From an uncultured Verrucomicrobiota bacterium (GTDB lineage Bacteria; Verrucomicrobiota; Verrucomicrobiia; Opitutales; Seribacteraceae), in the NCBI GenBank assembly GCA_902580225.1, contig CACHJU010000012.1, positions 1 through 57,738 of the forward strand: DNA of 57,738 bases. The letters run 5' to 3'. Positions 1,928 to 50,587 of the stretch are shown piece by piece. Under the pieces are notes generated by a model. The model saw only the letters and a list, made by a program, of their open reading frames with translations, did not search any database and was not told the DNA's origin. The position numbers and the translations under genes are program-made. Every line of letters starts with the position of its first letter. The stretch's first letter is position 1.

Positions 1928-1934
1928 CCATTTC

Positions 1935-3335
1935 ATGAGTTTTATTAACGACAACTTTCTCCTTACCAGCGATTCTGCCGTTGAGCTTTTTCACGAATAT
2001 GCCAAGGACGAACCGATTCTGGATTTCCACAATCATTTATCACCCAAAGAAATTGCCGAGGATCGAAGATTTAATAATCTGGCTGAAATTTGGCTCGAAG
2101 GAGATCATTATAAATGGCGGGCTTTACGAGCGAATGGAATTCATGAGGAATTAGTAACTGGTAATGGAGACCCCAAAGAAAAATATCTGGCTTGGGCAGA
2201 GACTATTCCTCATACCCTAGGAAATCCACTTTATCACTGGACCCATCTCGAATTAAAAAGATGCTTTAATATTGATCTCCTTCTCTCTCCCGAAACCGCC
2301 GAAGAAATTTGGGAACAGGCGAACGAGAAGCTCGCGGAACCAAATTTTTCTGCCTGTGGTATGCTTGACCGGTTTAAGGTCAATGCTCTCTGTACTACTG
2401 ATGATCCCGCCCACCCTCTTATTCATCATGAAAAAATTGCCCAAAGTAATCCAGCTTGTAAGGTATATCCAACTTTTCGTCCGGATGCCGCCTGGGGTAT
2501 TGATCGGGCCGAAAATTTTATCGAATGGATTGAAGACCTTGAACAAAATTCGGGAAAGACAATTTCCAGTTTTGATGGTTTCCTTCAAGCTCTAGCGGAT
2601 CGGTTGCAAAAATTCCACGAACTTGGTTCGTGCCTGGCTGATCATAGCTTTCCCTATTTCTTTGCAGACTTCCCAAGTGAAGTCGAGGCAAGGCAAATTT
2701 TTGAACAAACCATTCACGGTCAGAATGCAACTCCTTCTGAACGCGAAAGGTTCGGCTCTTTTATTATGCTATATTTAGGTAGATGGTATTCTGCAAATGG
2801 ATGGACGATGCAAGTACACCTTGGTCCAATGAGGAATAACTCGACAAAATTGCTCAACACCTTTGGTCCGGATGCGGGAACTGATTCAATCGGCGATTGG
2901 AATCAGGCAGAAAGAATGTCTGCTTTTCTCGATCGCCTGGACCAGGAAGATGCCCTACCCAAGACCATTGTTTATAATAATAACCCATCCGATAATTTTG
3001 TAATTTCCACGATGCTGGGTAACTTCCAAAGGGATATTCCTGGAAAAATGCAATTTGGTTCAGGATGGTGGCATCTCGATCAACGGGACGGAATGGAAGA
3101 ACAGATTAAAACTCTGGCCAATACAGGCTTACTTTCACGCTTCATTGGAATGCTAACCGACTCCCGTTCCTTCCTTTCTTTTCCACGCCACGAATATTTC
3201 CGCCGAATTCTCTGTAACCTCCTGGGTTGCTGGATGAAGGAGGGCTTTATTCCCAACGAAATGGAAATGACCGGAAATTTAGCTCGGCGTATTTGTTATC
3301 AAAACGCAAGCGACTATCTCAATCTTGGAAATTAA
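1935..3335 (+). CDS. uxaC: Glucuronate isomerase (uronate isomerase)
   Basis: Cytoplasmic isomerase converting D-glucuronate to D-fructuronate (and D-galacturonate to D-tagaturonate), the first step of hexuronate catabolism (EC 5.3.1.12). The 466-residue length is normal for the family. The amidohydrolase-type metal motif is visible as DFHNHLSP, with His32 and His34. ALCTTDDP near residue 150 and the C-terminal MLTDSRSFLSFPRHEYFRR segment are also typical of UxaC. It follows the sulfatase by 7 bp, so desulfation of a uronic-acid-containing polysaccharide and uronate use are probably co-expressed. There is no clear Shine-Dalgarno sequence before the ATG; this is general in the window. Confidence 0.96.
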   Translation: MSFINDNFLLTSDSAVELFHEYAKDEPILDFHNHLSPKEIAEDRRFNNLAEIWLEGDHYKWRALRANGIHEELVTGNGDPKEKYLAWAETIPHTLGNPLYHWTHLELKRCFNIDLLLSPETAEEIWEQANEKLAEPNFSACGMLDRFKVNALCTTDDPAHPLIHHEKIAQSNPACKVYPTFRPDAAWGIDRAENFIEWIEDLEQNSGKTISSFDGFLQALADRLQKFHELGSCLADHSFPYFFADFPSEVEARQIFEQTIHGQNATPSERERFGSFIMLYLGRWYSANGWTMQVHLGPMRNNSTKLLNTFGPDAGTDSIGDWNQAERMSAFLDRLDQEDALPKTIVYNNNPSDNFVISTMLGNFQRDIPGKMQFGSGWWHLDQRDGMEEQIKTLANTGLLSRFIGMLTDSRSFLSFPRHEYFRRILCNLLGCWMKEGFIPNEMEMTGNLARRICYQNASDYLNLGN

Positions 3336-3406
3336 TCCCTTTTTTTGGAACTGTATAAAATTCTTGCATTCATACATTCATTATCAACCTATAAACAAAT
3401 AAAAAT

Positions 3407-3823
3407 ATGAAAAAATTACTTACATTTCTTTCCCTATTTTGTCTCGCGACTGCATTAGTGGCGAAGCCCGAAAAGGTAGGAAAAGGAGGAAAACCAGGTC
3501 GACCATCCCGTGAAGAGATGATGAAAAAATTTGATATAGACGGAGACGGAAAGCTCAGTGAGAACGAAAAAGCAGAAATCCGTAAAAATATGGCCAACCG
3601 GCAAGTCCCTGCTCATATTCTCGATAAATTTGATAAAGATGGAGATGGAAAGCTAAGTGATGAAGAAAGAGCCGAAATTCGTAAAGAGATGATGGCAAAG
3701 TTTGATAAAGACGGTGATGGAAAACTAGGACCTGAAGAAAGAAAGGCAGCAATGGCAGCCCGGTCCAAGTTAATGCAGGGAAAAGGAAAAAAGAAAAAAG
3801 GGGAAAGTAAAAAAAAGAAATAG
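3407..3823 (+). CDS. Secreted EF-hand (calcium-binding) protein with Lys-rich tail
   Basis: Small 138-residue exported protein. An N-terminal signal peptide (MKKLLTFLSLFCLATALVAK) is followed by a Gly/Lys/Pro stretch. Three canonical EF-hand loops follow: DIDGDGKLSENE, DKDGDGKLSDEE and DKDGDGKLGPEE, at about residues 44, 73 and 97. Loop positions 1, 3, 5 and 12 are acidic in each, so calcium binding is expected. The last about 15 residues are almost all lysine and glycine. Such EF-hand proteins are abundant in planctomycetes and verrucomicrobia, but their role is not settled; calcium buffering or surface interaction are possibilities. It is a single gene with its own terminator just downstream. 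Confidence 0.88.
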   Translation: MKKLLTFLSLFCLATALVAKPEKVGKGGKPGRPSREEMMKKFDIDGDGKLSENEKAEIRKNMANRQVPAHILDKFDKDGDGKLSDEERAEIRKEMMAKFDKDGDGKLGPEERKAAMAARSKLMQGKGKKKKGESKKKK

Positions 3824-3847
3824 TCCTTATTTTTTGAATTCAAATTT

Positions 3848-3885
3848 AAAAAGCGGATCAATTGATTGGGTTCGCTTTTTTATTG
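3848..3885 (+). terminator. Rho-independent terminator after the EF-hand gene
   Basis: The ten-base arms AAAAAGCGGA (3848-3857) and TTCGCTTTTT (3871-3880) pair with one G-U. They enclose a 13-base loop and end in a T-rich run. The position, 25 bases after the EF-hand stop codon, suits a terminator separating that gene from proA. Confidence 0.75.
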
Positions 3886-3939
3886 AGAAAACTACGAAAA
3901 CTCTTCACCCAAAGGAAAACTTTGTGTATTCAATAGAAT

Positions 3940-5205
3940 ATGTCGGAAAAACTTCCCAAATTAATTGAAAGCTTAGCGAAACGGGCACGGACTGCCTCCC
4001 TCTCCCTCGCCAAAGCCTCCACCGCAGATAAAAATGATGCCCTCCAAAAGATTGCCGAGGTATTGGAATCCAATCGAAAACTTCTGGCCGAAGAGAACCA
4101 GAAGGACTTGGATGCTGCTCTCGAAAATGGATTAAGTGAGGCCATGATTGACCGCTTACGGTTAACCCATAAACGAATTGACGGAATGGCCAAAGGCTTG
4201 CGTGAGTTAATCGAACTGCCCGATCCGGTTGGAGATATTCTCGAGCAAAGAAATCGACCCAATGGATTGAGAATTAAAAAGGTCAGAACTCCAATAGGCG
4301 TAATCGGTATCATCTTTGAATCCCGCCCCAATGTTACTGTGGACTGTGCTGGATTGTGCCTAAAGTCAGGAAACGCTTCTATCCTCAGAGGAGGAAAGGA
4401 AGCATTTCATTCCAACCAGGCACTTGCTCAGATTGTGCAAGATGCCCTTCAAATTTCAAACCTTCCTGAAGACGCTGTTCAACTGGTCCCCACCGTGGAT
4501 CGCCAAGCTTTGAATCATCTGCTCACTCTAGATGAGTACATCCACTGCATCATTCCGCGCGGCGGTGAGGGTTTAATTCGCTTCGTTTCTCAAAATAGCC
4601 AGATACCGGTAATTAAACACTACAAGGGAGTATGCAATTTATTTGTTGAGGAAGAAGCTGATCTTGCCAACGCAGTGGATATTGCAGTTTCCTCAAAATG
4701 CGGCCGTCCGGGTGTCTGCAACGCAATTGAGAATTTAATAATCAGTTCTAAAATTGCCGGAGAATTTCTTCCGCTCTGTGCGAAAGAGTTAATTGCTCGT
4801 GGTTGCGAACTGAGAGTGGATAAAGAAGCAGCCGCCATTCTTGGAGATTTCACGACTGTGCCCGCAAAGGAAGAAGATTATGCCGAGGAATTCCTTGACC
4901 TCAAAATAGCGGTGAAGGTGGTCAACTCAATTGATGAGGCAATCGCATTCGTAAATCGTTTCGGGAGCGGACACAGTGAATCAATTCTGACCCAAAACAA
5001 AACAAAAGCCGATCAATTCCTCAAGGAAGTGGATGCCTCCTCTGTATATTGGAATGCGAGTACCCGATACACCGACGGTTTTGAATTCGGTTTAGGAGCA
5101 GAGATTGGAATTTCCACCGATCGCTTACATGCCCGAGGACCCATGGGACTCGAGGAGTTGTGTACTTACAAATACAATATTGTGGGTACCGGTCAGTGGA
5201 AGTGA
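3940..5205 (+). CDS. proA: Gamma-glutamyl phosphate reductase (glutamate-5-semialdehyde dehydrogenase)
   Basis: NADPH-dependent reduction of L-glutamyl-5-phosphate to glutamate-5-semialdehyde, the second step of proline biosynthesis (EC 1.2.1.41). The 421-residue length and the aldehyde-dehydrogenase-like fold are as expected. Typical segments are GVIGIIFESRPNVT near residue 126, SGNASILRGGKEA, and the catalytic-cysteine region RPGVCNAIE with Cys260. ProB (glutamate 5-kinase) is not in the window. It is followed after 39 bp by pyrC on the same strand, so the two may share a transcript. Confidence 0.97.
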   Translation: MSEKLPKLIESLAKRARTASLSLAKASTADKNDALQKIAEVLESNRKLLAEENQKDLDAALENGLSEAMIDRLRLTHKRIDGMAKGLRELIELPDPVGDILEQRNRPNGLRIKKVRTPIGVIGIIFESRPNVTVDCAGLCLKSGNASILRGGKEAFHSNQALAQIVQDALQISNLPEDAVQLVPTVDRQALNHLLTLDEYIHCIIPRGGEGLIRFVSQNSQIPVIKHYKGVCNLFVEEEADLANAVDIAVSSKCGRPGVCNAIENLIISSKIAGEFLPLCAKELIARGCELRVDKEAAAILGDFTTVPAKEEDYAEEFLDLKIAVKVVNSIDEAIAFVNRFGSGHSESILTQNKTKADQFLKEVDASSVYWNASTRYTDGFEFGLGAEIGISTDRLHARGPMGLEELCTYKYNIVGTGQWK

Positions 5206-5244
5206 CATAACCTATTCCCCCCCTCCCTTGCTCCCTTTAAAAAA

Positions 5245-6579
5245 ATGACTGACTTACTGATTACCGGGAGCACTCTCATTAACGAAGGTAAAAGATCAGA
5301 GAATGATCTTCTGATTCGCAAAGGAAGAATTGAATCAATTGGACCGAGTCTAGCCGTCCCTCACTCCTGTCAAGTGATGGATGCGACTGGAAAACTCATA
5401 CTCCCGGGCCTTATTGACGACCAGGTTCATTTCCGTGAACCCGGCCTCACTCACAAAGCATGCATTCAAACAGAGTCCATGGCCGCAGTGGCAGGAGGCG
5501 TGACCACTTTTTTTGAAATGCCCAATGTTGTCCCCCCCACCCTCAATATGGAAAAAATTGAGGAGAAATGTGCCATCGCGAACCGGGACTCACTCGCCAA
5601 TTACGCTTTTTTCTTGGGAGCCAGTAATGAAAACCTTGAAAATATAAAGGATGCTGACCCCACAAAAATTGCCGGTATCAAAGTGTTCATGGGGTCATCC
5701 ACCGGAAACATGCTCGTTGATGAAGAAAAAGTACTCGAGGGTATCTTTCGTAATGCCCCTACCATTATTGCCACACATTGTGAGGATACCCCTACAATAT
5801 TGGCTAATGAAGAACAAGCACGGCAAAAATTCGGAGTAAATGTTCCCTTTTCCGAACACGGGAATATCCGTTCAAGAGAAGCCTGCCTCAAGTCTTCTTC
5901 TATGGCGGTGGAATTGGCCAAGCACGAAAATGCAAAATTACATGTACTTCACATCTCCACCGCCGAGGAGTTAAACCTTTTTGAACCGGAGTTCGATCGT
6001 ATCACAGCCGAGGCCTGTGTCCATCACTTATGGTTCGAAGAACTGAGCTATTCAACTTTGGGCTCTTTAATCAAATGTAACCCAGCAATCAAAAAGGCAA
6101 GTGATCGGGACGCAATTCGTAGAGCAGTCAGAGATGGGAGGATTTCCATTTTGGCCACCGATCATGCACCTCACACATGGGATGAAAAACAGGGAAATTA
6201 TTTCAGTGCTCCTTCCGGACTCCCTCTTATTCAACATAGCCTTTTACTCATGCTGGAAATGTGCGAGCAGGAATGCTTTTCCATTGAAACAATAGTTGAG
6301 CGGGCCTGCCATGCACCAGCCCGCTTGTTCCAGGTTGAAGAAAGAGGATTTTTAAGAGAAGGATATTGGGCTGATATTGTAATCGTTAATCCATCACAAA
6401 ATACTTCGGTTCAGGAAAGTGAGCTTTACAGTAAGTGCCAATGGTCCCCCTTTCCCCATATGACTTTTACAAATTCAATTGAAACCACAATTGTTTCTGG
6501 TGAAATTGCTTACCAAGACGCTAAATTAAATAATGCATGCCGTGGAAAACGGGTTAACTTTAGCAACCATAGAAGATAA
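5245..6579 (+). CDS. pyrC: Dihydroorotase, class I-like
   Basis: Amidohydrolase catalysing reversible cyclisation of carbamoyl-aspartate to dihydroorotate in pyrimidine synthesis (EC 3.5.2.3). The 444 residues show the family metal/active-site pattern: DDQVHFREPG near residue 58, GIKVFMGSSTGN with the likely carboxylated lysine, ATHCED, LHVLHIST, and ATDHAPHT. In the usual HxH motif the first histidine is glutamine (QVH). From memory this is a feature of the Bacteroidetes-type dihydroorotase subfamily. No shadowing pyrB or other pyr genes are nearby. Allantoinase or hydantoinase are alternatives within the same superfamily but fit less well. Confidence 0.9.
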   Translation: MTDLLITGSTLINEGKRSENDLLIRKGRIESIGPSLAVPHSCQVMDATGKLILPGLIDDQVHFREPGLTHKACIQTESMAAVAGGVTTFFEMPNVVPPTLNMEKIEEKCAIANRDSLANYAFFLGASNENLENIKDADPTKIAGIKVFMGSSTGNMLVDEEKVLEGIFRNAPTIIATHCEDTPTILANEEQARQKFGVNVPFSEHGNIRSREACLKSSSMAVELAKHENAKLHVLHISTAEELNLFEPEFDRITAEACVHHLWFEELSYSTLGSLIKCNPAIKKASDRDAIRRAVRDGRISILATDHAPHTWDEKQGNYFSAPSGLPLIQHSLLLMLEMCEQECFSIETIVERACHAPARLFQVEERGFLREGYWADIVIVNPSQNTSVQESELYSKCQWSPFPHMTFTNSIETTIVSGEIAYQDAKLNNACRGKRVNFSNHRR

Positions 6580-6883: not shown

Positions 6884-9800
6884 ATGAAAAAAAATATCGC
6901 ATCAATCTTAGTAACATTAATCCTAATCGGTTTTTCTTTTTTTAACCCAATTGAAGAAAAAGGTGAAACCATTTCACAGGTTCCCGAGCAAACGGAACCA
7001 AAATCGAGTACTCCTTTATCTAGTGAGCAAGTTGAAGAGCCTGTTCCTTCAATAAACAAGGTTAATAAAAAAGTTGATGCAATGGTTGCAGAACAAAAAA
7101 AAGTTGAGCCTCTTCAGGCACAACAGGAAAAATCACTAACTAGCAGGATAAAAGAAGTTATTGAAGATAATACTTTAGCCGTTGAAGAATCTAAAATCAT
7201 TACTCAGGAGAAAGCATCAGAGAGGCAGACAAGGTTATCTCTTATGAGGACAACTTTCAAATATCCCCTTCTCATTCTCGAAGAAACGGGTGACTTCAGC
7301 GACCCGGAAGAAGAAAAAATCGAGTCAGTAGAGGCTCAAGTTGCCGGTCACTTCATTGTCCGGTTTTTGCCTTTTCTTCCAAAGGAACTTCTGCAGGAAA
7401 GACTTAGTGAAGTCGGATGCGAATTAGGTTCATCCGTTGGAGACGATGCGTATTTAGTAAAAATTAAAGAAGAACCCACCATTGATTTACACTTCACGAA
7501 AAAAGAAGCGGTCCAAAGTATGATTGATGTAATTGAAGATGTGGAACCGGACTATTTTGTAACCACCGTCAAACTTTCTGATGACACACGACTTCATGAT
7601 CTTTGGGGAATGAACAATAAGGGCCAAACTGGTGGAACCGAAGATAAAGATATTGATGCTCCAGAAGCCTGGGATATCACCACTGGTAGCAAAGATATCC
7701 TGGTAGGTGTTATAGATACTGGAATTGACCGTGACCATGAGGATCTAAAAGCAAACATGTGGACGAATCAAAATGAAATTGCCGGTAACGGAAAGGATGA
7801 CGATAACAATGGTTATATCGACGATGTCCATGGTTGGGACTTTTACAACAATGACAACAACCCGGATGACGATGACTCACACGGTACACATTGTGCCGGC
7901 ACAATTGGAGGAGTTGGAAATAACGGCAAAGGAGTCGCTGGGGTTTGTTGGAATGTTTCCATGGTGGGCATCAAATTTCTTGGTAAAGACGGAGGTTATA
8001 TTTCAGACGCTATTAAATCAGTCACCTATGCAACCAAGATTGGAGTCAATTTAACATCCAACTCATGGGGAGGCGGAGGCTATTCAAGCACCTTGAAACG
8101 GGCCATTGATGAAGCAAACCAAAAAGGGATCGGTTTTGTGGCTGCTGCGGGGAATCATAATGGAAATAATGATTCCCGTCCAAGCTATCCCGCTTCCTAT
8201 AAGTCTGAAAATGTCATCTCCGTTGGAGCTTCAGATCATCGTGGACTAAAAGCTTATTTTTCCTGCTATGGAAAAACAAGTGTCGACCTTTTTGCTCCCG
8301 GGGTAAAAATTTTAAGTTCTGTACCCAACAATAAATATGCAAGTTTTCAGGGTACATCCATGGCTGCTCCCCATGTATCCGGTGCATACGCACTCCTGCT
8401 TTCCGCAAACCCAACCTGGAGCGTTGCCCAGGTAAAAAGTGCCTTAATTAATTCAACAGATGCTGAGTCACTGCTTAAGGACAAATGTGTTGCCGGTGGA
8501 ACTTTGAATATTCACAAAGCTCTTTCCGTTGAACCCCCCAAGGAAAGATTAATCAGTGTTAATCCATCCAAAATTGATTTTGGAAGAATTTCAAAAGGTG
8601 AATCCAAAAGCCTCGCGTTCACAATTTCAAATACAGGAACAGATCCTTTAAAAATAACAAGTGCAACGGTCGGATCCCAGAATTTTGTTCTTTCTTTGGA
8701 AACTCCAAAAACTATTAAGAAAGGCGAGGAATTAAAGGGAAATGTTTTATTTACTGGTAATCAGAATGGTAAGATCACTTCTTCTTTGACCATTTTAAGC
8801 GATGCAAAAAATCAGCCTCGTTTAAGCGTTCCTTTAAATGCAGAGGTATTCAGTGCACCGAATTTGGTTGTCACTCCCGAAAGCATGCATTTCGGACTTA
8901 CGGACAAACAAATTAAGACTGAAAATCTCTTCCTTGCAAATACCGGAAATGGTGATTTGAAGTACGAAATTTACCTATCCGATAATGCAGGTTCCCCAAA
9001 AACAAATACTTCTTTATGGGGTATGGGTAACAATTACTACGGTCAGCTAGGTAATGGAAGAACTGACGTAATTCAAAAAACACCTGTTAAAATTTTTGAT
9101 AAGGGCATTAAAAATATTGTTGCTGGTAGTAACCATACTTTAGTTCACAAAGAGGATGGTAGTGTCTGGGGTATGGGTTACAATTACTTCGGCCAACTTG
9201 GTAATGGAAGAAGTGACCGAATTCAAAAAACACCTGTTAAAATTTTTGATAAGGGTATTAAAAATATTGTTGCTGGTTACCACCATACTTTAGTTCACAA
9301 AGAGGATGATAGTGTCTGGGGAATGGGTCGTAATTCCTATGGTCAGCTTGGCAATGGAAGAAATGACCAAAGTCAAAAAACACCTGTTAAAATTTTTGAT
9401 AAGGGTATTAAAAATATTGTTGCTGGTGGTTGGCATACAATGGTTTTTAAAAATGAAGGATACGGTCAGTCAGTTGATTGGCTAACCCTGGATAATAATC
9501 GAGGAATTCTAACACCTGGTAAGAAATTCACCATAAAAGTACAGGCCAACGATCAAAAGTTGGATCAGAATGAAAGCACAGCTTACATACATCTGCTCTC
9601 AAATGATCCTCAAAACCCTTCCAAAGTGATCAAAGTGACGGTTGAAAAACTACGTTATGACGGTGGTCTAGTCTTCCGTCCATCAACACTTAATTTTGAC
9701 CATACATTCGTGGGGCAGGCAAATAAAAGAAAAGTAACCATCAGCAATGCCGACACCAAATCAATTAGTATCAAACAATTTGCTTTTGACAACGCTGTGT

Positions 9801-12800
9801 TCACTCACGATTTAAAACTTCCCGTTACCTTAAAAAGCGGTGAGAAAATAGAGAAGGAATTTATCTTCACCCCCACAAAATCCGGCAAGATTGAAGCCTC
9901 CGCAACCATTCTATCTGATGAGGGTGGATTAAAAGTTAGAAATTATTCAGTGAGCGGAACCGGATTGGTTGCCCCTTCCATGGTGGTATCGCCAAATTCT
10001 TTCTCAACCACTCTGGCGATGAACAAGGAAAAAAATCTTTCCCTTTATATTTCCAACAAAGGAGGAAGCCCACTCAGCTGGAATATAAAAGGTGCCACCC
10101 AAAAAGGCGGAAAATCTCTCACCGAACAAAGAATTTTTGATCTTTCTCATTTTTCTCCTTTGAGCAAGGGACAGGTTGATGAAAGAAAAGGAATTCCCGT
10201 TTCCAAAATGGGTGGGGGTCCTGATCGGTATGGATATTCATGGCAGGACAACTTGGATGCAACTGGTCCAAAACACCAATGGATTGATATATCCAAGACA
10301 GGTAGACGCCTCGATACATTATCCAAAACTGATGACGGATATGCACGGGTTACCATGCCTTTCAGTATCGAATTGTATGGTGAAAAATTCAACTCAGCCT
10401 ACATCAGTTCAAATGGATATGTGACTTTTGAAAAAGGTTCCAACGAGCATGGGCACTTCCCCCTTCCCTCTTCCATGATGCCCGGTAATTTAGTTGCTCC
10501 CTTTACCATGGATCTGGCTCCAAACAGAGGAGGAGATATTTACTACAAAACAAGCCAGGATGAACTTCTCATTCAGTGGAACAAGGTAAAAGATTTTGCC
10601 GGACTGGGTGAGTTTACATTTCAGGCATCCCTGAATAAAAATGGAACTATTTACTTCCATTATGAAAAAATGAATGGCCGTGTTGACGGGGCAACCACCG
10701 GGATTCAGAACAAATCAGCAGATGTCGGGCTTTTGGTTGCGTATAACAACAAACAGGTTACTTCGGATTCAACCATCCGAGTTTCCACCTCTCCAAGATG
10801 GTTAACTTCATCTGTTCACAATGGAGTCGTTGTGGCAGGCAAAACAAGTGTGGTTCCTTTCACTGTAATGTCTTCTGAAATGCCTGCCGGAAAATACATG
10901 GCAACCCTGACAATTAGTGGCAATGATCCATTAAACCCAGTAGATGAGGTACCTGTCACTTTGGTGGTTACCCCAACCAAGAAGATCATTCTTGAGCCTG
11001 CTACCTTAAACTTTGGCAGTGTTTTGGTCGGAGAAAAAGTTTCTAGATTCGTTAAAGTCAGAAATCAGGGAAATACAAAAATCGATTTATCTAAGCTTGA
11101 ATCAGGCATGAATGTATTTACCGGAAGGCTATTTTCCCAGAAAATAGAAGCGGGTAAATCAACCGATTTACAAGTTGAATTTACTCCCCAGAATGCTGGC
11201 TCTCTTCGGGTTAATGCCAAGCTCTTATCAAATGCGGACAACTCCCCCACCCTTCTTACCTTAATTGGTAAAGGATTGGCGAGCCCAGCCCTCACTCTTA
11301 ATCCAGACAAATTAATGGTCACTGTTCAAGCAGGACAAAAAACATCCAAAGTTGTACAAATGGGTAATGTAAAAGGTAAGGCAACAGGAACTTATGAATA
11401 CAATGGAATTAGAACAAAATCTTTTGCCTCCAGAATAAACCCTGCTGAATCAACCGAAAAAGCTGTGGATCCATTCCTCGCGAACCATCATGCCGATCGA
11501 TTGATTGTAGGTTTTAAAGATGGACACACCACTTTTGCAAATCTTGCCGGATTGAGTACCAGTGTTACTCTTGAAAGAACACTTGGAAAAGCCCGCACAC
11601 CAGGCAGTGGAAAGTTGGCTTTAGATGGGATGAATATTTCCCTCGTAAGAACCAATGGCAGTGAAAGTTTAAAAAGCGTTGCCGAAAAGCTCTCAAGAGA
11701 TCCCGCAGTCGCCTATGTCGAACCTGATTACATTGTCAATCGAACAGCCAACGCGAATGATCCCCTTCTTTCCCAACAATGGGCACTTCCCAAGATCAAA
11801 GCTGCAGAGGCTTGGAAGATGACCAAGGGTTCACACACAGTATCCGTCGCAATTATTGATACAGGAATAGACTACAGACATCCCGACTTACAGGGTAATC
11901 TTTGGAAAAATCCGGGCGAAATCGCGAATAATGGGAAAGATGATGATGGAAATGGTTACATTGATGACATCTACGGTTGGGATTTTATAAATAATGATAA
12001 TGATCCAATGGACGGACATGGTCATGGAACTCATGTCGCCGGATCCATTGCCGCAGCAACCAACAATGGAAAATTAATCGCCGGGGTTGCCTGGCACTCT
12101 AAAATGGCTGGAATTAAATTCTTGTCAGATAGAGGAAGCGGAAGCATATCGGATGCAATCGATGCAGTCGCCTATTCCGCTGCAATGGGATTTAAAGTAA
12201 GCAATAACAGCTGGGGAGGCGGAGGAAAAAGTCTTGCTCTTAAAGCAGCGATTGAAAAAGCAGCAAAAGCAGGTCAGTTATTCTGTGCTTCCGCTGGAAA
12301 TTCAAGACGTGACAATGACCGTTCACCTCACTATCCATCGAGTTATGATTGTGAAAACATCATTTCAGTTGCGGCTTCTGATAGCTCGGACCGCCTTGCC
12401 AGTTTCTCATGCTATGGAAAAAACAGCGTGGATCTTGCAGCTCCAGGCGTTCGAATCTTAAGTCTTTTACCCAATAATAAAACTGGAAGTTGGAGCGGAA
12501 CTTCCATGGCAACTCCGCATGTGGCCGGTGCAGCCGCCCTTATTTTTGCGGTCAATCCGAATGCAGGATATGCAGAAGTTAAAAAGGCAATCATGTCTTC
12601 CGTTGATCCGGTTAAAGCATTCGAAGGAAAAATGATGGCTGCTGGCCGACTCAATGTTGCCAAGTCACTCGGGGGTGTGAACTCCACCTGGATCACAGTT
12701 TCTCCGAATAAAGGAACCGTACCTGCCGGAAGAACAGCTAACTTAAATGTTACAGTTGACGCGACTGAACTAAACGCAGGGGAAAAAGAAGTAATCGCTT

Positions 12801-15800
12801 CATTCACAACCAATGATCCAAAGGCAAAAAACCTTGAATTGCCCGTACATGTGAAGATCATTGGAGAGCCCAAAATGGAACTTAGTAAAAAATCCTTTGA
12901 CTTTGGTGAGGTATGGGTAAACCAAAGAAAAGAGGTAAAATTAATTATCCGCAACATGGGTACCGACACCCTCAAGATTTCATCTCTTAGTTTCGGAAAC
13001 TCCACATTTGGTAGTGCTCTTGAAAACCTTGACGTTGCACCCAAAACCGAAAAGGGAATCGTCCTTTTTGCTGCTCCTAAGCAAAGCGGAAACATAAAAT
13101 CTAATCTCACCATTGTCTCTAATGATCCCGAACAAAGAAATGTAAACGTCTCCTTAGATGTAAAGGCTGTGACTCCTCCTTCCCTGGCAATCAATCCAGT
13201 AAGTATAGAGTACAAACTCGAGCCTAATCAAAAGGGTGAAAAAGAAATTACAATATCAAATTCCGGTCAGGCAACGGCTATATGGGAAACCAAGATCGTA
13301 GAAATTGACAAAAAGCGCTCTAGAACTCAAGACATGAACAGCCTTATTGCAGGGCTGAATGCTAATGGAAGAGCTCCTGAATATACAAATCCATGGGGTC
13401 CACTAATAGGGTCTAATTCCAATTCTGATCAAAATGAATCAAAGCAAAATGCATATCGATTTGTTGGTACCAATACAAAGAATGGTTTAGAGGTAGCGAT
13501 CTTAGGTGCAGATTTCAGTAATGACTTAATTAAATTTGGTAAAGAAATTGCCAAGAGGGGTAACATTGCAGCTGCAACAACTATCAATGTTCGTAGCTTG
13601 GTGCCCAAAGAAAATGAACTTAAAGCTTTTGACTCAATTATTGTATACAGCAATTATGCTTATAGAAATCGCAATGATTTAGGTAACGCCATTGCTACTT
13701 ATGCAGAAAACGGAGGTGGCGTGGTAACAATGAATGGAGAAAATATTTACTACTTAAATTCAAAAAACTGGTCACTAGGAGGCAGTTGGAGAAATAAAAA
13801 CTACCCTTTATTTTCCATACAAAAACAATTCTCAAGAAATAAGAGTGTTTTAGGTCAAATTAAAATGCCTAATCACCCCTTAATGAAAGAGGTTAAGAAG
13901 TTTAATGGTTCTTTGAGAATCTTGCATAACACTCCACTAAAAGGGTCTACGGTAGCAGCACTTTGGCAAGATGGCACTCCTCTTGTTTCATTTCGTGATT
14001 CTCCAGGAGCAGTGGTGGATCTAAATTTTTTTCCTACACGCGGACTTTGGGATACAACAACTGACGGATGGATAATGATAGCCAATGCACTTGAGTGGGC
14101 TGCCCAAGGTGGAGCACCCAAATGGATTACTGGAAACCCTCTTGCAGGTGCCGTAAAGGGAGGAGATACAAATCAACAAAAGCTTTCCTTTGATGCTACC
14201 AGTTTGGACGAAGGTAACTACACAGCAGAAGTTCAATTCACCACCAATGATCCGAAAAATCCATACCAGGCTGTAAAAGTGAAGTTAATTGTAAGAGAAA
14301 ACCAAGCACCTGTTGCCAGCTCATCCACAATCCAACTCAAGGAAGACACTCAAAAAAGTTTCACCCTCAAGGCAGTTGATCCGGACGGAGATTCCATCCG
14401 TTACATCATTACGAATTCTCCCAAAAACGGAAAAGTAACAGGTAGTGGAAAAACATTCACCTATCTTCCAAATCCAAATTACTTTGGTAAAGATGAATTA
14501 TCATTCAAAACTACAGATGGAAAGAAAGAAGGAAACACTGCTAAAGTCACATTTATCATTGATGGAGTAAACGATGCTCCCTGGATCCAGTCTGAGACTA
14601 TTAACACTAAAGAGGACGAGCTCATCGTTATCGCCCCAAAATATGGGGATCCAGATGGAGACAGGGTTCAAGTTAATTTAGTTCAGGAACCAAAGAATGG
14701 ATCTGTTCATAATCAGGGAAATAAATGGCTCTTCTTCCCCAATGCTAATTATAATGGAAATGATTCACTCCGCTTTTCTGTAACCGATGGAAATTTGAAA
14801 GCAGAAGCTTTAATTAATCTTCAAATTGAAGCTGTCAACGATGCTCCCCTTGCCTCAAATTCCTTAGTTCAAACAGAGGAAGGCAGAAGTGTCTCATTTG
14901 AATTAAACGCAACCGATGTAGAAAATGATTCAATCACTTACCGTGTCATCAATTCGCCCAAACATGGAACTCTTACGGTAGATAAAAATGGCAAGTGCAA
15001 GTATGTACCATTTGAAAATTACAATGGTAAAGATTCCTTTTCTTTTCGTGCCTCAGACAGTGAATCTGATGGGAATCTTGGAGTAGTTACTCTTGACATA
15101 ACGCCAAAAAATGAAGCTCCCCAAGTTATGGAAGCAACATTCGCACTCGAAGAGGATGGCAAGTTACCCATTAAATTAATCGCTTCCGATCCAGATGGTG
15201 ACTCCCTCACATTCAGTGTGATCAGGCAACCTGAAAATGGTTCAATCACAGGGTCCGGACCTTCTTACAAGTACACTCCAAAAGCTAATTATCATGGTTC
15301 CGATTTCTTCCTTGTTACTGCAAAGGATGGCAAATTGACAAGCAAGGCTGCTAAAATCACTCTGAACATTGCAGGAAAAAACGATGCTCCAAGTTTTGTG
15401 AATAACTTGAAGTCCCTTTCTGTTGGATATAGAGAAACTCCTTACAGAATGAAGCTTGAGGTAACTGACCCTGAAAACGACAACTTGACCATTCGGGTTA
15501 AAAATAAGCCTAAGCAGGGAACTTGCTACATTGACGGAACAGAGTTCCTTTATCTTCCAGATCCAGGATTTACTGGAATTGAAAATATCAAACTTGAAGT
15601 CACTGACGGTGAACTCTCCAGTCAAACTATTCTTAATCTCCCCATCGAAGAGCATGCAAACTCGATTGGAATCGCAGTCGATTTGAGCAAAGCTGGAGAC
15701 AACGAACAAGCTTTCGTAGATATGGTTTATCAAGTTAACGAAAAGCTTAAAATCTCTGCTGACCATATCCTTAGAATGGACCAGAAAAAAACATCATCTA

Positions 15801-16486
15801 ATTTTGAGGGAACTATCAAAGATAATTTAGACGGTTTAAATATCATGACTCTGGACGAGTGGAAAATGAAATTACCAGAAATGAAAAAAGAAACCAGTTT
15901 CTCATTCTGCCCCGTCATGGAAAACGGAACTGTAATCTGGAAAATTCAATCTTCTTTGGATCCAGTATCTGGTGTAAATACAGATTTAGATAATAATAAC
16001 ACCTATGTACATAACCCAATAAATAATGAATCAGACAGTCAAAAAGACAATTCTTTGGATCCAGTATCTAGTGTAGATACAGAACTAAATAATGAAAGTG
16101 AGAATACTAAAAATTCTAATAATGAAAATATAAATAATAACACACCAAACAAGTTAGCAGTTTCTGATTTGTCAAATGTGGAAAAAATTGAATCCGCTCC
16201 AAATTGGTATTCGTTGCCAGGCTTAGGTTCATTCTTCGATGCGGGTAACGGTTGGTTGTATCAGCCTGAAATCGGATGGTGCTATGCAAAAGCTTGCCAA
16301 GATGGTTGTTCCTTATGGGTCTACAATCAGAAGACTGGATGGATGTGGTTCAAAAATGACTTACCAAATGTTACTTACACAATGGGAGACTTGGGACAGG
16401 GTTGGATGTATTTTCCAAAAGAATCTATCGGAAAAAGTGCAGTCGTTTTCAACTACGCTAATAATGTTTGGATTAAATTAAACTAA
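6884..16486 (+). CDS. Giant (3200 aa) exported protein: two subtilisin-like domains, RCC1, cadherin-like repeats, Trp-rich C-terminus
   Basis: Begins with a signal peptide (MKKNIASILVTLILIGFSFF) and a propeptide-like region. Subtilase domain 1 has the triad Asp278, His333 (HGTH) and Ser492 (GTSMAAPH). Next come four repeats of an ASPM/HYDIN-like domain plus a BACON-like Ig domain interrupted by an insert. The inserts are RCC1 repeats (about 711-862), a nidogen-like SSNGYVTF sandwich (about 1072-1302), a second propeptide and subtilase with Asp1659, His1714 and Ser1874, and a Rossmann/ThuA-like domain (about 2142-2410). Five cadherin-like NDAP repeats occupy about 2475-2922. An Asn-rich linker leads to a Trp-rich domain (about 3107-3200). 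It is probably a cell-surface or secreted protease/adhesin. Both catalytic triads look intact. No sortase, T9SS or PEP-CTERM signal was recognised, so the Trp-rich end may serve in sorting or binding; this is inference. It stands as a single gene with terminators on both sides. Confidence 0.93.
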   Translation: MKKNIASILVTLILIGFSFFNPIEEKGETISQVPEQTEPKSSTPLSSEQVEEPVPSINKVNKKVDAMVAEQKKVEPLQAQQEKSLTSRIKEVIEDNTLAVEESKIITQEKASERQTRLSLMRTTFKYPLLILEETGDFSDPEEEKIESVEAQVAGHFIVRFLPFLPKELLQERLSEVGCELGSSVGDDAYLVKIKEEPTIDLHFTKKEAVQSMIDVIEDVEPDYFVTTVKLSDDTRLHDLWGMNNKGQTGGTEDKDIDAPEAWDITTGSKDILVGVIDTGIDRDHEDLKANMWTNQNEIAGNGKDDDNNGYIDDVHGWDFYNNDNNPDDDDSHGTHCAGTIGGVGNNGKGVAGVCWNVSMVGIKFLGKDGGYISDAIKSVTYATKIGVNLTSNSWGGGGYSSTLKRAIDEANQKGIGFVAAAGNHNGNNDSRPSYPASYKSENVISVGASDHRGLKAYFSCYGKTSVDLFAPGVKILSSVPNNKYASFQGTSMAAPHVSGAYALLLSANPTWSVAQVKSALINSTDAESLLKDKCVAGGTLNIHKALSVEPPKERLISVNPSKIDFGRISKGESKSLAFTISNTGTDPLKITSATVGSQNFVLSLETPKTIKKGEELKGNVLFTGNQNGKITSSLTILSDAKNQPRLSVPLNAEVFSAPNLVVTPESMHFGLTDKQIKTENLFLANTGNGDLKYEIYLSDNAGSPKTNTSLWGMGNNYYGQLGNGRTDVIQKTPVKIFDKGIKNIVAGSNHTLVHKEDGSVWGMGYNYFGQLGNGRSDRIQKTPVKIFDKGIKNIVAGYHHTLVHKEDDSVWGMGRNSYGQLGNGRNDQSQKTPVKIFDKGIKNIVAGGWHTMVFKNEGYGQSVDWLTLDNNRGILTPGKKFTIKVQANDQKLDQNESTAYIHLLSNDPQNPSKVIKVTVEKLRYDGGLVFRPSTLNFDHTFVGQANKRKVTISNADTKSISIKQFAFDNAVFTHDLKLPVTLKSGEKIEKEFIFTPTKSGKIEASATILSDEGGLKVRNYSVSGTGLVAPSMVVSPNSFSTTLAMNKEKNLSLYISNKGGSPLSWNIKGATQKGGKSLTEQRIFDLSHFSPLSKGQVDERKGIPVSKMGGGPDRYGYSWQDNLDATGPKHQWIDISKTGRRLDTLSKTDDGYARVTMPFSIELYGEKFNSAYISSNGYVTFEKGSNEHGHFPLPSSMMPGNLVAPFTMDLAPNRGGDIYYKTSQDELLIQWNKVKDFAGLGEFTFQASLNKNGTIYFHYEKMNGRVDGATTGIQNKSADVGLLVAYNNKQVTSDSTIRVSTSPRWLTSSVHNGVVVAGKTSVVPFTVMSSEMPAGKYMATLTISGNDPLNPVDEVPVTLVVTPTKKIILEPATLNFGSVLVGEKVSRFVKVRNQGNTKIDLSKLESGMNVFTGRLFSQKIEAGKSTDLQVEFTPQNAGSLRVNAKLLSNADNSPTLLTLIGKGLASPALTLNPDKLMVTVQAGQKTSKVVQMGNVKGKATGTYEYNGIRTKSFASRINPAESTEKAVDPFLANHHADRLIVGFKDGHTTFANLAGLSTSVTLERTLGKARTPGSGKLALDGMNISLVRTNGSESLKSVAEKLSRDPAVAYVEPDYIVNRTANANDPLLSQQWALPKIKAAEAWKMTKGSHTVSVAIIDTGIDYRHPDLQGNLWKNPGEIANNGKDDDGNGYIDDIYGWDFINNDNDPMDGHGHGTHVAGSIAAATNNGKLIAGVAWHSKMAGIKFLSDRGSGSISDAIDAVAYSAAMGFKVSNNSWGGGGKSLALKAAIEKAAKAGQLFCASAGNSRRDNDRSPHYPSSYDCENIISVAASDSSDRLASFSCYGKNSVDLAAPGVRILSLLPNNKTGSWSGTSMATPHVAGAAALIFAVNPNAGYAEVKKAIMSSVDPVKAFEGKMMAAGRLNVAKSLGGVNSTWITVSPNKGTVPAGRTANLNVTVDATELNAGEKEVIASFTTNDPKAKNLELPVHVKIIGEPKMELSKKSFDFGEVWVNQRKEVKLIIRNMGTDTLKISSLSFGNSTFGSALENLDVAPKTEKGIVLFAAPKQSGNIKSNLTIVSNDPEQRNVNVSLDVKAVTPPSLAINPVSIEYKLEPNQKGEKEITISNSGQATAIWETKIVEIDKKRSRTQDMNSLIAGLNANGRAPEYTNPWGPLIGSNSNSDQNESKQNAYRFVGTNTKNGLEVAILGADFSNDLIKFGKEIAKRGNIAAATTINVRSLVPKENELKAFDSIIVYSNYAYRNRNDLGNAIATYAENGGGVVTMNGENIYYLNSKNWSLGGSWRNKNYPLFSIQKQFSRNKSVLGQIKMPNHPLMKEVKKFNGSLRILHNTPLKGSTVAALWQDGTPLVSFRDSPGAVVDLNFFPTRGLWDTTTDGWIMIANALEWAAQGGAPKWITGNPLAGAVKGGDTNQQKLSFDATSLDEGNYTAEVQFTTNDPKNPYQAVKVKLIVRENQAPVASSSTIQLKEDTQKSFTLKAVDPDGDSIRYIITNSPKNGKVTGSGKTFTYLPNPNYFGKDELSFKTTDGKKEGNTAKVTFIIDGVNDAPWIQSETINTKEDELIVIAPKYGDPDGDRVQVNLVQEPKNGSVHNQGNKWLFFPNANYNGNDSLRFSVTDGNLKAEALINLQIEAVNDAPLASNSLVQTEEGRSVSFELNATDVENDSITYRVINSPKHGTLTVDKNGKCKYVPFENYNGKDSFSFRASDSESDGNLGVVTLDITPKNEAPQVMEATFALEEDGKLPIKLIASDPDGDSLTFSVIRQPENGSITGSGPSYKYTPKANYHGSDFFLVTAKDGKLTSKAAKITLNIAGKNDAPSFVNNLKSLSVGYRETPYRMKLEVTDPENDNLTIRVKNKPKQGTCYIDGTEFLYLPDPGFTGIENIKLEVTDGELSSQTILNLPIEEHANSIGIAVDLSKAGDNEQAFVDMVYQVNEKLKISADHILRMDQKKTSSNFEGTIKDNLDGLNIMTLDEWKMKLPEMKKETSFSFCPVMENGTVIWKIQSSLDPVSGVNTDLDNNNTYVHNPINNESDSQKDNSLDPVSSVDTELNNESENTKNSNNENINNNTPNKLAVSDLSNVEKIESAPNWYSLPGLGSFFDAGNGWLYQPEIGWCYAKACQDGCSLWVYNQKTGWMWFKNDLPNVTYTMGDLGQGWMYFPKESIGKSAVVFNYANNVWIKLN
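9014..9463 (+). repeat. Three tandem 150-bp repeats encoding RCC1-like units
   Basis: Units start at 9014, 9164 and 9314 and are exactly 150 bp (50 residues) each. Each encodes WGMGxNxxGQLGNGRxD, then TPVKIFDKGIKNIVAG, then an H-T-hydrophobic end. The central stretch (AAAACACCTGTTAAAATTTT and the following 30 or so bases) is almost identical in all three copies. That points to recent tandem duplication or gene conversion. Three units cannot close a seven-bladed RCC1 propeller alone. Confidence 0.9.
15953..16150 (+). repeat. Two 99-bp imperfect tandem repeats in the Asn-rich linker
   Basis: TCTTTGGATCCAGTATCT occurs at 15953 and again at 16052, exactly 99 bp (33 residues) apart. Each copy encodes SLDPVS followed by a Val-x-Thr and an Asn/Asp/Ser-rich stretch. 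The second half is degenerate. It lies just upstream of the Trp-rich C-terminal domain of the 3200-residue protein and looks like an expandable spacer. Confidence 0.75.
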
Positions 16487-16715: not shown

Positions 16716-19700
16716 ATGAGTAAAGTCTTCGTTCTGTTCACATCCATAGTGATCCTCTTAGGATTTTCAAATGCCCTCGTAGGGAACCCACTCAAATATT
16801 CCGCTACTGGGAAGAAGAAAAAAAATAAACACCTTGTACTCATTGCCAGTGATCATGAATACAGAGCAGAAGAAACGATCCCCGCACTGGCACGTATTCT
16901 ATCTTTCCATCATGGCTTTGACTGCACCGTTCTTTTTGGTCTCGATGAAAACGGTGAAATCAAGGCGGGAGCTTCCAATATCCCCGGACTCGAAGCACTC
17001 AAAAAAGCGGACGGTGCCGTAATCTTCACCCGTTTTCTTGCCCTTCCTCCCGAGCAGATGAAGCACATTGACGAATACCTGGACCGTGCGGGTCCTGTGT
17101 TGGGTCTTCGTACATCCACTCACGGATTCAATTACAAAGACGATAAGGATCCTTATTATAAATACCATTTTCGCTACACCGGAAAGGAATACGAAGCCGG
17201 ATTTGGTCGTCAAGTTTTAGGACAAAGCTGGGTCGGACATTATGGAAGAAACCACAAACAAAGCACCCGGATTTCGATTATTCCCAAGCAAAAGGAAAAT
17301 CCGATCCTTCGCGGAGTGAAGGATGTACATGTACAGGCTGGGGGCTACAATGCGGAAGCTCAAAGGGACTGGAACATTCTTACCATGGCTCAACCACTCA
17401 TGTCCATGAAAGCCGATGGAGTCCCCGATGAAACCAAACCTCCAATGGCCAGTGAATGGACCCGTCACTATCAGGGTAAAAACGGAAAAAAAGGCCGGGT
17501 TTTCACCTCACTCTACGGAGCATCCGAAGATCTTTTAAATCTTGGATATCGCCGAATGATTGTCAACGGGGTCTATTGGATACTAGGTTTGGAGAAACAA
17601 ATCAAACCGGATTCAAAAATCGATTTCGTCGGTGCTTACAACCCAACCACATTCAAAAACGGCGGTGAGGTTAAAAGAGTCAAACCTGCCATGTATGTTA
17701 AATTGGACAGCCCCATCCCTGCAGAAATAAAAGCCCAGCAAAACTCCTCGAAAAAAGAAGCTTCCACAGGTATACGTTTTCTTAGAATCGAAATTCCCGG
17801 AGACAATAAAATCCTAACTTTGAACGAGGTGGAAATTTTCAGTGGTAATAGAAATGTCGCCCGGCAGGGTAAAGTCAAGCAGTCCAGCGTGGGGTCCGGG
17901 GGGATTCCAGAACGCGGAATTGACGGAAATAAAAACCCCGACTATGGAGGAGCCGGTCAGACCCATACAGATGGATCCGGATCTACCAATCCTTGGTGGG
18001 AAGTGGATCTGGGTAAAGAATATTTGATCGATAGGGTGGAAGTTTGGAACCGTAAAAGTCTGGAAAAACGACTGGATGGATTCACCCTTCAGTTATTCGA
18101 TTCCAACCGCAAAGAAATCTATAAAAGTGGAAAAACAAAAGGGGCTCAACGGATAAAGTTCACTCTCAAAAATAAGGCCATCATTGATTATATGCTTTTC
18201 AACGGAAAACCGGAACCCAAACTTATAGATAATTCCAAGCCTCCGGTTGAAGTGCCAGCAGAATATAAAGATGAACTCCCTTTCTCCTTTAAGAAAGGGG
18301 ACACCGTGGCAATCCTCGGAAACGGACTGGCCGACCGGATGCAGCATGATGCATGGACTGAAACAGTCTTACAAAGTGCTTTAAAGGGACAGGAGATATC
18401 TTTTAGAAATATGTCTTTGTCAGGTGACCGACCAAACAAATACCCCAGAAGTAGAGGCTTCATACCCATGGATCAATACCTCCAGCATGTGAAAGCCGAT
18501 GTGGTATTTGCAATGTTTGGATACAATGAATCGTTTGACGGAGTCCAGAATGCAGAAAACCACAAAAATTTACTCATTGATTTCGTGGGTAAAATTCGAA
18601 GTTACAAACCGAACGGCAAAAGCTTCCCCAGAATTGTGCTCTTCAGTCCGATTGCATTTCAGAATTTGAATGATCGTAACCTACCCAATGGAAGAGCTCA
18701 TAACCGCAATCTTGCCGCTTATGCTAAAGCGACCGAAAACGCGGCTAAAGAAATTGGAGTTCAATATGTTGATCTCTTCAATCCCACACTCAAACTATTT
18801 GAACAGAGTAAAAATCCGCTGACTATCAACGGGGCACATCTCAATGCGGAAGGAAATCGCTTACTCGCCGAAATTATTGCTCAGGCTCTACTACGAAAAA
18901 ATATTACAGCCTCGCCCACCCTTCAAAAACTTAAAGAAGCCGTACACAAAAAGAATTGGACTTGGCATAACCGGTATCGGGCAACCGACGGAAATGATAT
19001 ATGGGGAGGACGCTCAAATCTTCGTTTCGTAGATGATCAGTCCAACGCAGAAGTGCTTCAGCACGAGCTTGTCATGCTTGATGTCATGACCGCCAATCGC
19101 GACAAATTAATCTGGGCGGTTGCTCAGGGGAAAAAACATAAAATAAACGACCGTAATGTACCAAAGCCCATCCCGGTAATTTCGAACATTGGGGGAAAAA
19201 GCCGTAGTTCAAATGCGGGTAAAGAAGGAAACCCAAACTATCTCAGTTCAAAAGACAGCATGAAAAGATTCGATGTCCGTGAGGGTTTTCAGGTAAATCT
19301 ATTCGCAGATGAAAGCCGTTTCCCCAAATTAATCAATCCGGTACAGATGCAAGTTGACACAAAGGGACGCCTCTGGGCTGCGGTCTGGCCAACCTATCCA
19401 ATGTGGGAACCTATGAAGGAAATGAATGATGCCCTGATCATTCTTCCCGACGAAAACAAGGACGGCCAAGCCGACCGTGTGATTGAATTTGCAAAAGTGC
19501 ACAATCCATTAGGTTTTGAATTTTGGAATGGTGGTGTGCTCGTTACCTCCGGCCCCGATCTTCTCTTCTTACGGGATAATGACGGAGATGATAAAGCAGA
19601 TGAACGCTATGTTATCCTACAGGGACTGGGAACCTCCGACACTCACCATGCGGCCAACAATCTGATTTTTGGTCCCGATGGCGGAATTTATTGGCAGAGT

Positions 19701-50515: not shown

Positions 50516-50587
50516 AAATGTTGACGCGAATAACATGCCTTTTAGCATGAAGAAGAATTGGAAGCATATTATATTATAAAAAAGACC

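Follow-up and report, generated by a model that had tools for sequence, protein, structure and literature searches.

A giant protein of 3200 amino acids, encoded by an uncultured Verrucomicrobiota bacterium, contains four beta-sandwich domains, each interrupted by another module. Its open reading frame, read from the sequence and annotated with Pfam, occupies positions 6884-16486 of the forward strand in a stretch of 57,738 nucleotides (contig CACHJU010000012.1), called here the window, and all features of the protein given below lie on that strand. The best explanation of the data, to which a probability of about 0.85 may be given, is that the four domains, hereafter the hosts, are split at a common site, that the two halves of each close into one sandwich, and that the protein is organised as a rod and rail. 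From the N-terminus, the order is a peptidase of the S8 family, four units composed of an intact ASH domain and a split host, five cadherin-like (tandem-95) repeats, and a tryptophan-rich C-terminus. In the whole protein, Pfam recognises two S8 stretches, HYDIN/ASH-type immunoglobulin-like (Ig) domains, three RCC1 repeats, partial BACON matches, and the five cadherin-like repeats. The initial annotation had proposed four rounds of intact ASPM/HYDIN-like domain, split host and insert; Pfam confirms the spacers, and the rounds are real because these intact ASH/HYDIN-type domains separate the hosts.

Two halves of each host

The units can be followed along the chain. In the first, the intact ASH/HYDIN-type domain (8549-8848, amino acids 556-655) precedes the N-half of host 1 (8855-8983, 658-700), an insert of three RCC1 repeats (8984-9463, 701-860; from Pfam and repeat analysis), and the C-half (9464-9655, 861-924). 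The second comprises the ASH domain (9659-9967, 926-1028), the N-half (9971-10099, 1030-1072), a putative nidogen-like (NIDO) insert (10100-10783, 1073-1300; from a sub-cut-off Pfam match and a phmmer cluster), and the C-half (10784-10975, 1301-1364). In the third, the ASH domain (10979-11275, 1366-1464) is followed by the N-half (11282-11416, 1467-1511), by sequence the weakest of the eight halves, an insert made of a propeptide and a Peptidase_S8 domain (11417-12673, 1512-1930), and a C-half with a BACON_2 match (12674-12865, 1931-1994). The fourth contains the ASH domain (12866-13171, 1995-2096), the N-half (13175-13303, 2098-2140), an insert of ThuA-like fold (13304-14110, 2141-2409), and the C-half (14111-14299, 2410-2472). 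The halves were delimited by profiles and predicted models, together with structure alignment for the C-halves of hosts 1 and 2 and Pfam for that of host 3; the spacers were delimited by Pfam together with the 19-host profile described below (first and third), structure alignment (second), or locus classification (fourth).

The interruption of the four sandwiches, as originally claimed, is recovered by two kinds of profile. A profile of the C-half matches the protein at 9470-9649, 10790-10972, 12680-12865 and 14114-14296 (78-86 bits; these four rows belong to the profile), in good agreement with the starts proposed earlier (about 9470, 10790, 12683 and 14114), and has no match beyond these four in the whole draft genome at E <= 0.001. 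When the halves were joined without their inserts and a profile of three hosts was searched for the fourth (E-values for one protein), each omitted host was recovered as an N-half plus a C-half, with independent E-values (i-E) of 1e-9 to 6e-15 for the C-halves and of 4e-6 (host 1), 6e-7 (host 2), 0.011 (host 3) and 1e-6 (host 4) for the N-halves. The break falls at columns 41-49 in hosts 2, 3 and 4, and the two pieces of host 1 overlap (columns 1-70 and 35-105). An independent profile, built from 19 joined hosts of other phyla with no row of the window's lineage, places the N-halves at amino acids 658-699, 1030-1071, 1468-1505 and 2098-2140, with their ends at columns 42, 42, 38 and 43; the C-halves start at columns 43, 29, 44 and 34, the low values being matches that extend back into the insert. 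In a reversed-sequence decoy (55 proteins, 97,933 residues), two N-half-like matches exceeded 2 bits and none exceeded 5, compared with 105 of 108 real N-halves above 5 bits. The terminal motifs of the initial annotation were only partly right: both the LxxxPxS start and the (S/T)NDPxNP end are present in hosts 1 and 4, host 2 begins with M and ends in GNDPLNP, and host 3 lacks the S of the start and ends in TNDPKAK.

Regarding the packing of the halves, two AlphaFold models were built on alignments that included both orthologues and distantly related proteins, covering amino acids 655-1370 (model 1) and 1458-2480 (model 2). In model 1, ten-residue blocks of the host 1 and host 2 halves average 63-92 in predicted local distance difference test score (pLDDT). 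Intact PDB domains align across both inserts: SfaE, FimC, YadV and OCRL for host 1 (102-107 residues, root-mean-square deviation (rmsd) 2.5-2.9 Å), and the MSP domains of SCS2 and VAP-A for host 2 (99-101 residues, rmsd 2.0-2.4 Å). Alignments of about 100 residues fit both halves because these have some 43-63 residues each, the RCC1 part has a pLDDT below 50, and the aligned ends lie in opposite halves. In both hosts the exit of the insert lies between strands 4 and 5, host 1 having four model strands in its N-half and five in its C-half; hosts 3 and 4 have an identical 4 + 5 strand plan in model 2. The models thus point to the closure of the halves of hosts 1 and 2 into one sandwich with the insert in the same loop, as had been anticipated, and for hosts 3 and 4 we infer the packing from homology. 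Among the matches listed for model 2, insert 3 is hit by subtilases and insert 4 by 2gk3 and 3soz; a viral-structure search, with 50 matches listed, has S8, glycoside hydrolase, BACON and Ig proteins among them.

The fold, initially described as BACON/choice-of-anchor-like, has to be corrected to PapD/ASH-like. In the predicted model, hosts 1 and 2 are single beta-sandwiches superposing on PapD/MSP/ASH domains. Among six intact relatives from other loci (given by L numbers), four exceed the cut-off of 25.5 for PF22544, the HYDIN/CFA65/VesB-like Ig family (L018 34.0, L150 32.0, L152 28.3, L146 25.8), and L137 (22.3), L129 (19.1) and all four isolated C-halves of the window are below it. For BACON_2 (PF19190, cut-off 25), two of the six are over (L018 31.6, L152 43.4), three are under (L129 19.1, L137 18.2, L146 16.6), and L150 is absent from the listed matches. 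In the window, the whole protein reaches 39.5 for this family, the C-half of host 3 is at the cut-off (25.0, family positions 40-83), that of host 1 has 16.8, and those of hosts 2 and 4 are absent from the listed matches. As some of the intact relatives match these families over the cut-off, the host and the intact ASH spacer are two branches of one fold class.

Hosts in other bacteria

The loci were collected in a scan of genome contigs, from 194 genomes of the same phylum (65 matched, E <= 0.001), from nine genomes of other loci (8 matched at 1e-5), and from 148 further genomes of the phylum of G201, a Bacteroidetes record (35 matched at 1e-5); L178, at the same place as L153, was left out, as was L030 from alignment A2. 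The closest relatives in the scan are Opitutales/Opitutia records of the Verrucomicrobiota. As the loci were chosen for scoring best against a C-half profile in which split hosts predominated, the split fractions given below are not population frequencies.

Counting inserts of 50 residues or more, the census comprises 108 split hosts spread over 55 proteins, including the window and five orthologues. Insert length ranges from 62 to 869 residues (median 230), although the pairing may be wrong for the longest (L131), and 107 of the 108 inserts are longer than the host of about 105 amino acids. Of the 62 split pairs that belong neither to the training set nor to the orthologues, 57 have an N-half ending at columns 36-48, the scan having permitted 15-92. 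The split form is found in six phyla: Verrucomicrobiota, Krumholzibacteriota, Eiseniibacteriota, Acidobacteriota, Bacteroidota, and Cloacimonadota. Homologues of the same host without an insert, a check suggested in the initial annotation, do exist (L018 560-661, with 105.7 bits; L146 566-669; L137 1126-1228; six in L152), and both forms coexist in some proteins (L018, L129, L137, L146). In one sequence set, the ASH domain is intact in 120 cases and split in one weak case, compared with 32 intact and 102 split hosts. When the best place of each locus was classified, 29 loci from genomes of the same phylum (the window left out) gave 12 split hosts, 4 intact ones and 13 without an N-half found, of which, by eye, around ten resemble uninterrupted hosts with an N-half missed by local alignment and two resemble split ones. 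All 30 loci of the phylum of G201 gave 21 split hosts, 4 intact ones, 2 with a linker of 24-25 residues, and 3 without an N-half. Host C-half matches are abundant in some genomes of that phylum (L166-L195), with 33 in G314, 27 in G224, 25 in G306 and 24 in G325.

The inserts are diverse. A phmmer comparison of all 108 sorts them into 25 clusters by single linkage at E < 1e-3, some of them probably distant kin, and 17 clusters have two or more members. Pfam was run with 40 queries representing 37 different inserts, insert 4 of the window included, and 18 of the 37 have no listed match. Those over the Pfam cut-off belong to S8 (L135, L137, L142 and the window), NIDO (L014, L029, L137), FG-GAP (two inserts of L133), DUF6923/DUF4394 (L018, L136), InhA-like MAM (L132, L143, L145), Cleaved_Adhesin (L167), Kre9_KNH (L149), and RCC1 (the window), with Laminin_G_3 just under it (L185). 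Within the sample, an S8 domain inside a host occurs only in Verrucomicrobiota, namely in the window lineage, L135, L137 and L142. Of the 26 proteins that contain more than one split host, 17 have at least two insert clusters, and seven have four: the window, its five orthologues, and L146. With L146, four in one protein, for which the initial annotation knew of no described precedent, is not unique. In L147 (216-8933, reverse strand), three of the four hosts carry the same insert of 253-255 amino acids (cluster x10; one was checked, with no Pfam match), and the remaining host carries one from the window's ThuA-like cluster.

The inserts of the window and their probable exchange

The modules originally named for the four inserts stand unevenly: the RCC1 repeats, three in number, and the S8 domain are found by Pfam, and NIDO and ThuA do not reach their cut-offs. 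Insert 1 has a period of 150 bp with 2.7 copies and 89% matches (9017-9427), and each of its three repeats is over the Pfam cut-off. An RCC1 propeller closes with seven blades, and insert 1 is too small for this because it has only three repeats. The repeat number differs between close relatives (one in L009), so the insert is either in flux or affected by the assembly. No recent donor of the RCC1 insert was found among the other genes of this 66.6%-complete assembly, where the best match has 43% identity and no match more than 46%, and a recent copy from within the genome was rejected on this ground. On contig C67 of the same genome (G000), an open frame of 1873 amino acids (1012-5478) has 23 RCC1 repeat matches and no host C-half match at E <= 0.001.

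Insert 2 scores 23.1 bits against NIDO (PF06119, cut-off 25) in the window protein. It is probably nidogen-like by homology, because phmmer groups it in a cluster of 33 inserts whose related members reach 33.2, 35.8 and 30.2 bits. Insert 3 matches PF00082, one of two such stretches in the protein, and contains IIDTGID, HGTHVAG and GTSMATPHVAG, the Asp/His/Ser triad motifs of S8. Its propeptide has 17.7 bits for the fervidolysin-type PF22148 (cut-off 21), which is reached by the related S8 inserts of L135 (43.8) and L142 (21.0); L137 is absent from the listed matches. Concerning the origin of these peptidases, the evidence on insert 3 as a copy of the N-terminal S8 of the same protein is mixed, the two being apart in a quick tree of 95 rows (envelopes below 190 amino acids or 60 bits left out) and joined in a careful tree of 37 rows (92/84, unstarred); the inserted S8 domains fall in two groups, and a single origin is not rejected by the approximately unbiased (AU) test (p 0.129). 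Insert 4 stays below the cut-off of 33.4 for ThuA (PF06283), and its copying from the neighbouring gene at 16716-21194 was discarded, the similarity being not significant (E 0.11).

A tree of 102 hosts requires 43 changes of insert label, where the minimum is 22 and shuffled labels average 68. This tree has 103 columns and 53 of its 99 inner branches are open; it leaves out the orthologues L009, L010, L011 and L013, split hosts with a C-half below 30 or an N-half below 8 bits, and intact hosts below 40 bits. By this comparison of sequences, the labels are partly inherited and partly changed; the label as a strict property of host clades is not supported on a tree so poorly resolved. Among the orthologues, the window is 89-100% identical to L009 in every segment from the first ASH domain to the C-half of host 3, and then 82% in the fourth ASH domain, 84% in the N-half of host 4, 40% in its insert, and 62% in its C-half (47 residues). 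In blocks of 150 nucleotides, identity to L009 is 83% at 13151-13300 and 54% at 13301-13450, the host-insert border being at 13304. With L012, identity is 85-96% from host 2 to the C-half of host 3; it drops to 26-40% for host 1 with its insert and to 35-56% for the fourth ASH domain with unit 4. This mosaic, with the drop at the host-insert border, suggests that units were exchanged and that at host 4 the insert was exchanged together with the C-half behind it. Overall, the comparison supports a general use of the loop, which appears to serve unrelated folds in six phyla, its units and inserts probably having been exchanged or replaced over time.

Proposed working, alternatives and known systems

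In the proposed working, a rod of PapD/ASH-fold sandwiches would lie behind the N-terminal subtilase, built from pairs of an intact ASH domain and a split host. The strand 4-5 loop of the second sandwich of each pair would carry a complete folded module, so that on closure of the halves the rod would stay continuous and the module would project sideways, like a tool on a rail. The protein would be secreted, to judge from its N-terminus and from two relatives with tails of the type IX secretion system (T9SS). Insert 3 may contribute proteolysis, the NIDO-like, ThuA-like and RCC1 modules may bind ligands or surfaces, and the tandem-95 repeats and C-terminus may give reach and attachment. Subtilases usually cut off their own propeptide. 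If the propeptide of the insert 3 zymogen were removed, the chain would be nicked inside the host loop, and the sandwich alone would hold the halves. A bolder version, in which the strand 4-5 loop is a universal socket for folded modules of unrelated architecture up to four times the size of the host, renewed by recombination in at least six phyla and acting also, in the zymogen case, as a clamp that keeps the protein together non-covalently once the inserted protease has cut the loop, has even odds.

Several observations weigh against the split-host reading. The N-half of host 3 is weak (2.6 bits and i-E 0.0065 in the 19-host profile, 0.011 when left out). Model confidence is modest, with a mean pLDDT of 66 in both models and predicted template modelling scores (pTM) of 0.41 and 0.47; pLDDT is below 50 for the RCC1 part of model 1 and low over long parts of the S8 insert in model 2. 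The spans across inserts 1 and 2 were read from the first and last aligned residues, and no PDB match crosses the inserts of hosts 3 and 4 among the 50 listed for model 2. Function and secretion are both inferred, the latter from the N-terminus and the T9SS tails of two relatives. Finally, the use of one loop as a repeated insertion site holds for the four hosts of the window and not for host 1 of L010-L013, where a different domain, around 180 residues long, is inserted at columns 48-53, some 5-10 columns later and after the next strand. The halves of that host also differ from those of the window (33-44% identity). An insert swap between orthologues was ruled out here, because host halves and insert diverge jointly and the insert is shifted by one strand; the case is one of unit exchange or fast divergence. 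The weak N-half scores of host 3, and the reading of half-to-half packing from alignment end points, would suit a linear chain in which the halves are not one domain, the N-half being either a short element standing by itself or a piece of the ASH domain before it, and the C-half a small domain of its own. This is nevertheless very improbable, as intact homologues join both halves in a domain of about 104 residues (L018, and six times in L152), intact domains of the PDB bridge inserts 1 and 2 in alignments with the model, and the ASH domain before host 2 (model residues 272-376) is complete alone, aligning with the HYDIN PapD-like domain 2ys4 over 99 residues (rmsd 1.9).

A more serious alternative accepts the split hosts and holds that host-plus-insert cassettes were inherited whole, through tandem duplication and transfer, so that the loop was entered few times and is not generally permissive. 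Labels are clustered on the host tree, much of the pattern being inherited, L014, L017 and L019 have four NIDO cassettes each, and the inserted S8 domains could have one origin by the AU test. Nonetheless, the 43 changes exceed the minimum, though on a tree with many open branches, and close paralogous hosts differ in insert cluster: in L016, x8 against ThuA-like (support 98), and in L018, the DUF4394/6923 type against a cluster without Pfam match labelled ThuA12 (support 94). The fall in identity to L009 within host 4, from N-half to insert, also speaks against whole cassettes, which we consider possible and rather unlikely. Assembly or binning artefacts of metagenome contigs could be suspected in a 2.36-Mb draft of 115 contigs, 66.6% complete, in which similar RCC1 repeats could collapse or expand. 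However, five orthologous loci from other records (L009-L013) carry four split hosts, the frame of the window has no internal stop, and other phyla share the insertion site; such an origin of the inserts is hardly credible.

In the giant protein, a hydrophobic, signal-peptide-like N-terminus is followed by the first Peptidase_S8 domain (7691-8461, amino acids 270-526; Pfam), which lies outside any host. Beyond unit 4 come the five tandem-95 or bacterial cadherin-like repeats (14303-15763, about 2474-2960; Pfam, region ends set by hand), and then the C-terminus (15764-16483), an Asn/Ser-rich linker with W-/Y-rich motifs (GWLYQPEIGWCYA, GWMWF, GWMYF) that could be an anchor. The next gene (16716-21194) encodes 1492 amino acids with F5/8C, GDSL lipase, DUF7133 and cupredoxin domains and an N-terminus that is ThuA-like by eye; the upstream genes encode a sulfatase, a glucuronate isomerase, an EF-hand protein, an aldehyde dehydrogenase-like protein, and an amidohydrolase. 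Such surroundings hint at polysaccharide use. Further away (50558-53677), a protein of 1039 amino acids combines a PQQ-type propeller with seven InlB B-repeat-like (Flg_new_2) stretches.

Among known systems, the closest PDB matches of model 1 are the PapD/ASH/MSP domains of HYDIN, CEP192 SPD-2, OCRL and VAP-A and the N-domains of FimC and SfaE, which have the same fold. The two-domain module of CEP192 SPD-2 (7ptb) aligns with the second ASH domain plus host 2 over 207 residues (rmsd 5.2). These matched domains have about 115-126 chain residues for some 100 aligned, with apparently no space for modules as large as those carried by the hosts of the window. BACON domains have a role in carbohydrate or mucin binding. 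With BACON/BACON_2 (PF13004, PF19190), the likeness is over the PF19190 cut-off in the intact hosts of L018 and L152, and partial in the split hosts of the window. The S8 proteins with choice-of-anchor D, from Krumholzibacteriota and others, share the N-terminal S8 and the units of ASH domain and split host, with NIDO, propeller-type or other inserts; two of them (L018, L146) end in T9SS sorting tails, and none was found in the window protein.

Natural domain insertions share the A1-B-A2 architecture seen here, so insertion itself is known. According to the ProDomino study, a parent P-loop NTPase carries 13 insert superfamilies (PMC12328240). An ECOD survey counts 48,551 insertion events, with inserts smaller than hosts in 77.0% (median 115 versus 199 residues), insertion positions evenly spread when all hosts are pooled, and many insert families that keep to one kind of host (PMC13114784). 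Sandwiches are already known as hosts, since the survey places the beta-sandwich Sec23/Sec24 (174 events) in its top five of host-consistent families by frequency. Its main text does not contain the words immunoglobulin, Ig-like or PapD. The near-fixed, multi-partner host is the part that was not found described in the literature searched, where coverage of subscription papers is limited. For annotation, apparent strings of separate domains become units of host and passenger. The ASH neighbour, of the same fold class and almost never split, provides a matched control, and comparing it with the host could show what lets a loop accept a whole domain, of practical use in protein engineering; the host family supplies a naturally occurring scaffold for which a range of inserts is already known. 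Compared with the averages of the ECOD survey, the present host is unusual in three respects: its inserts are larger, its insertion site is nearly fixed, and its partners are many and unrelated.

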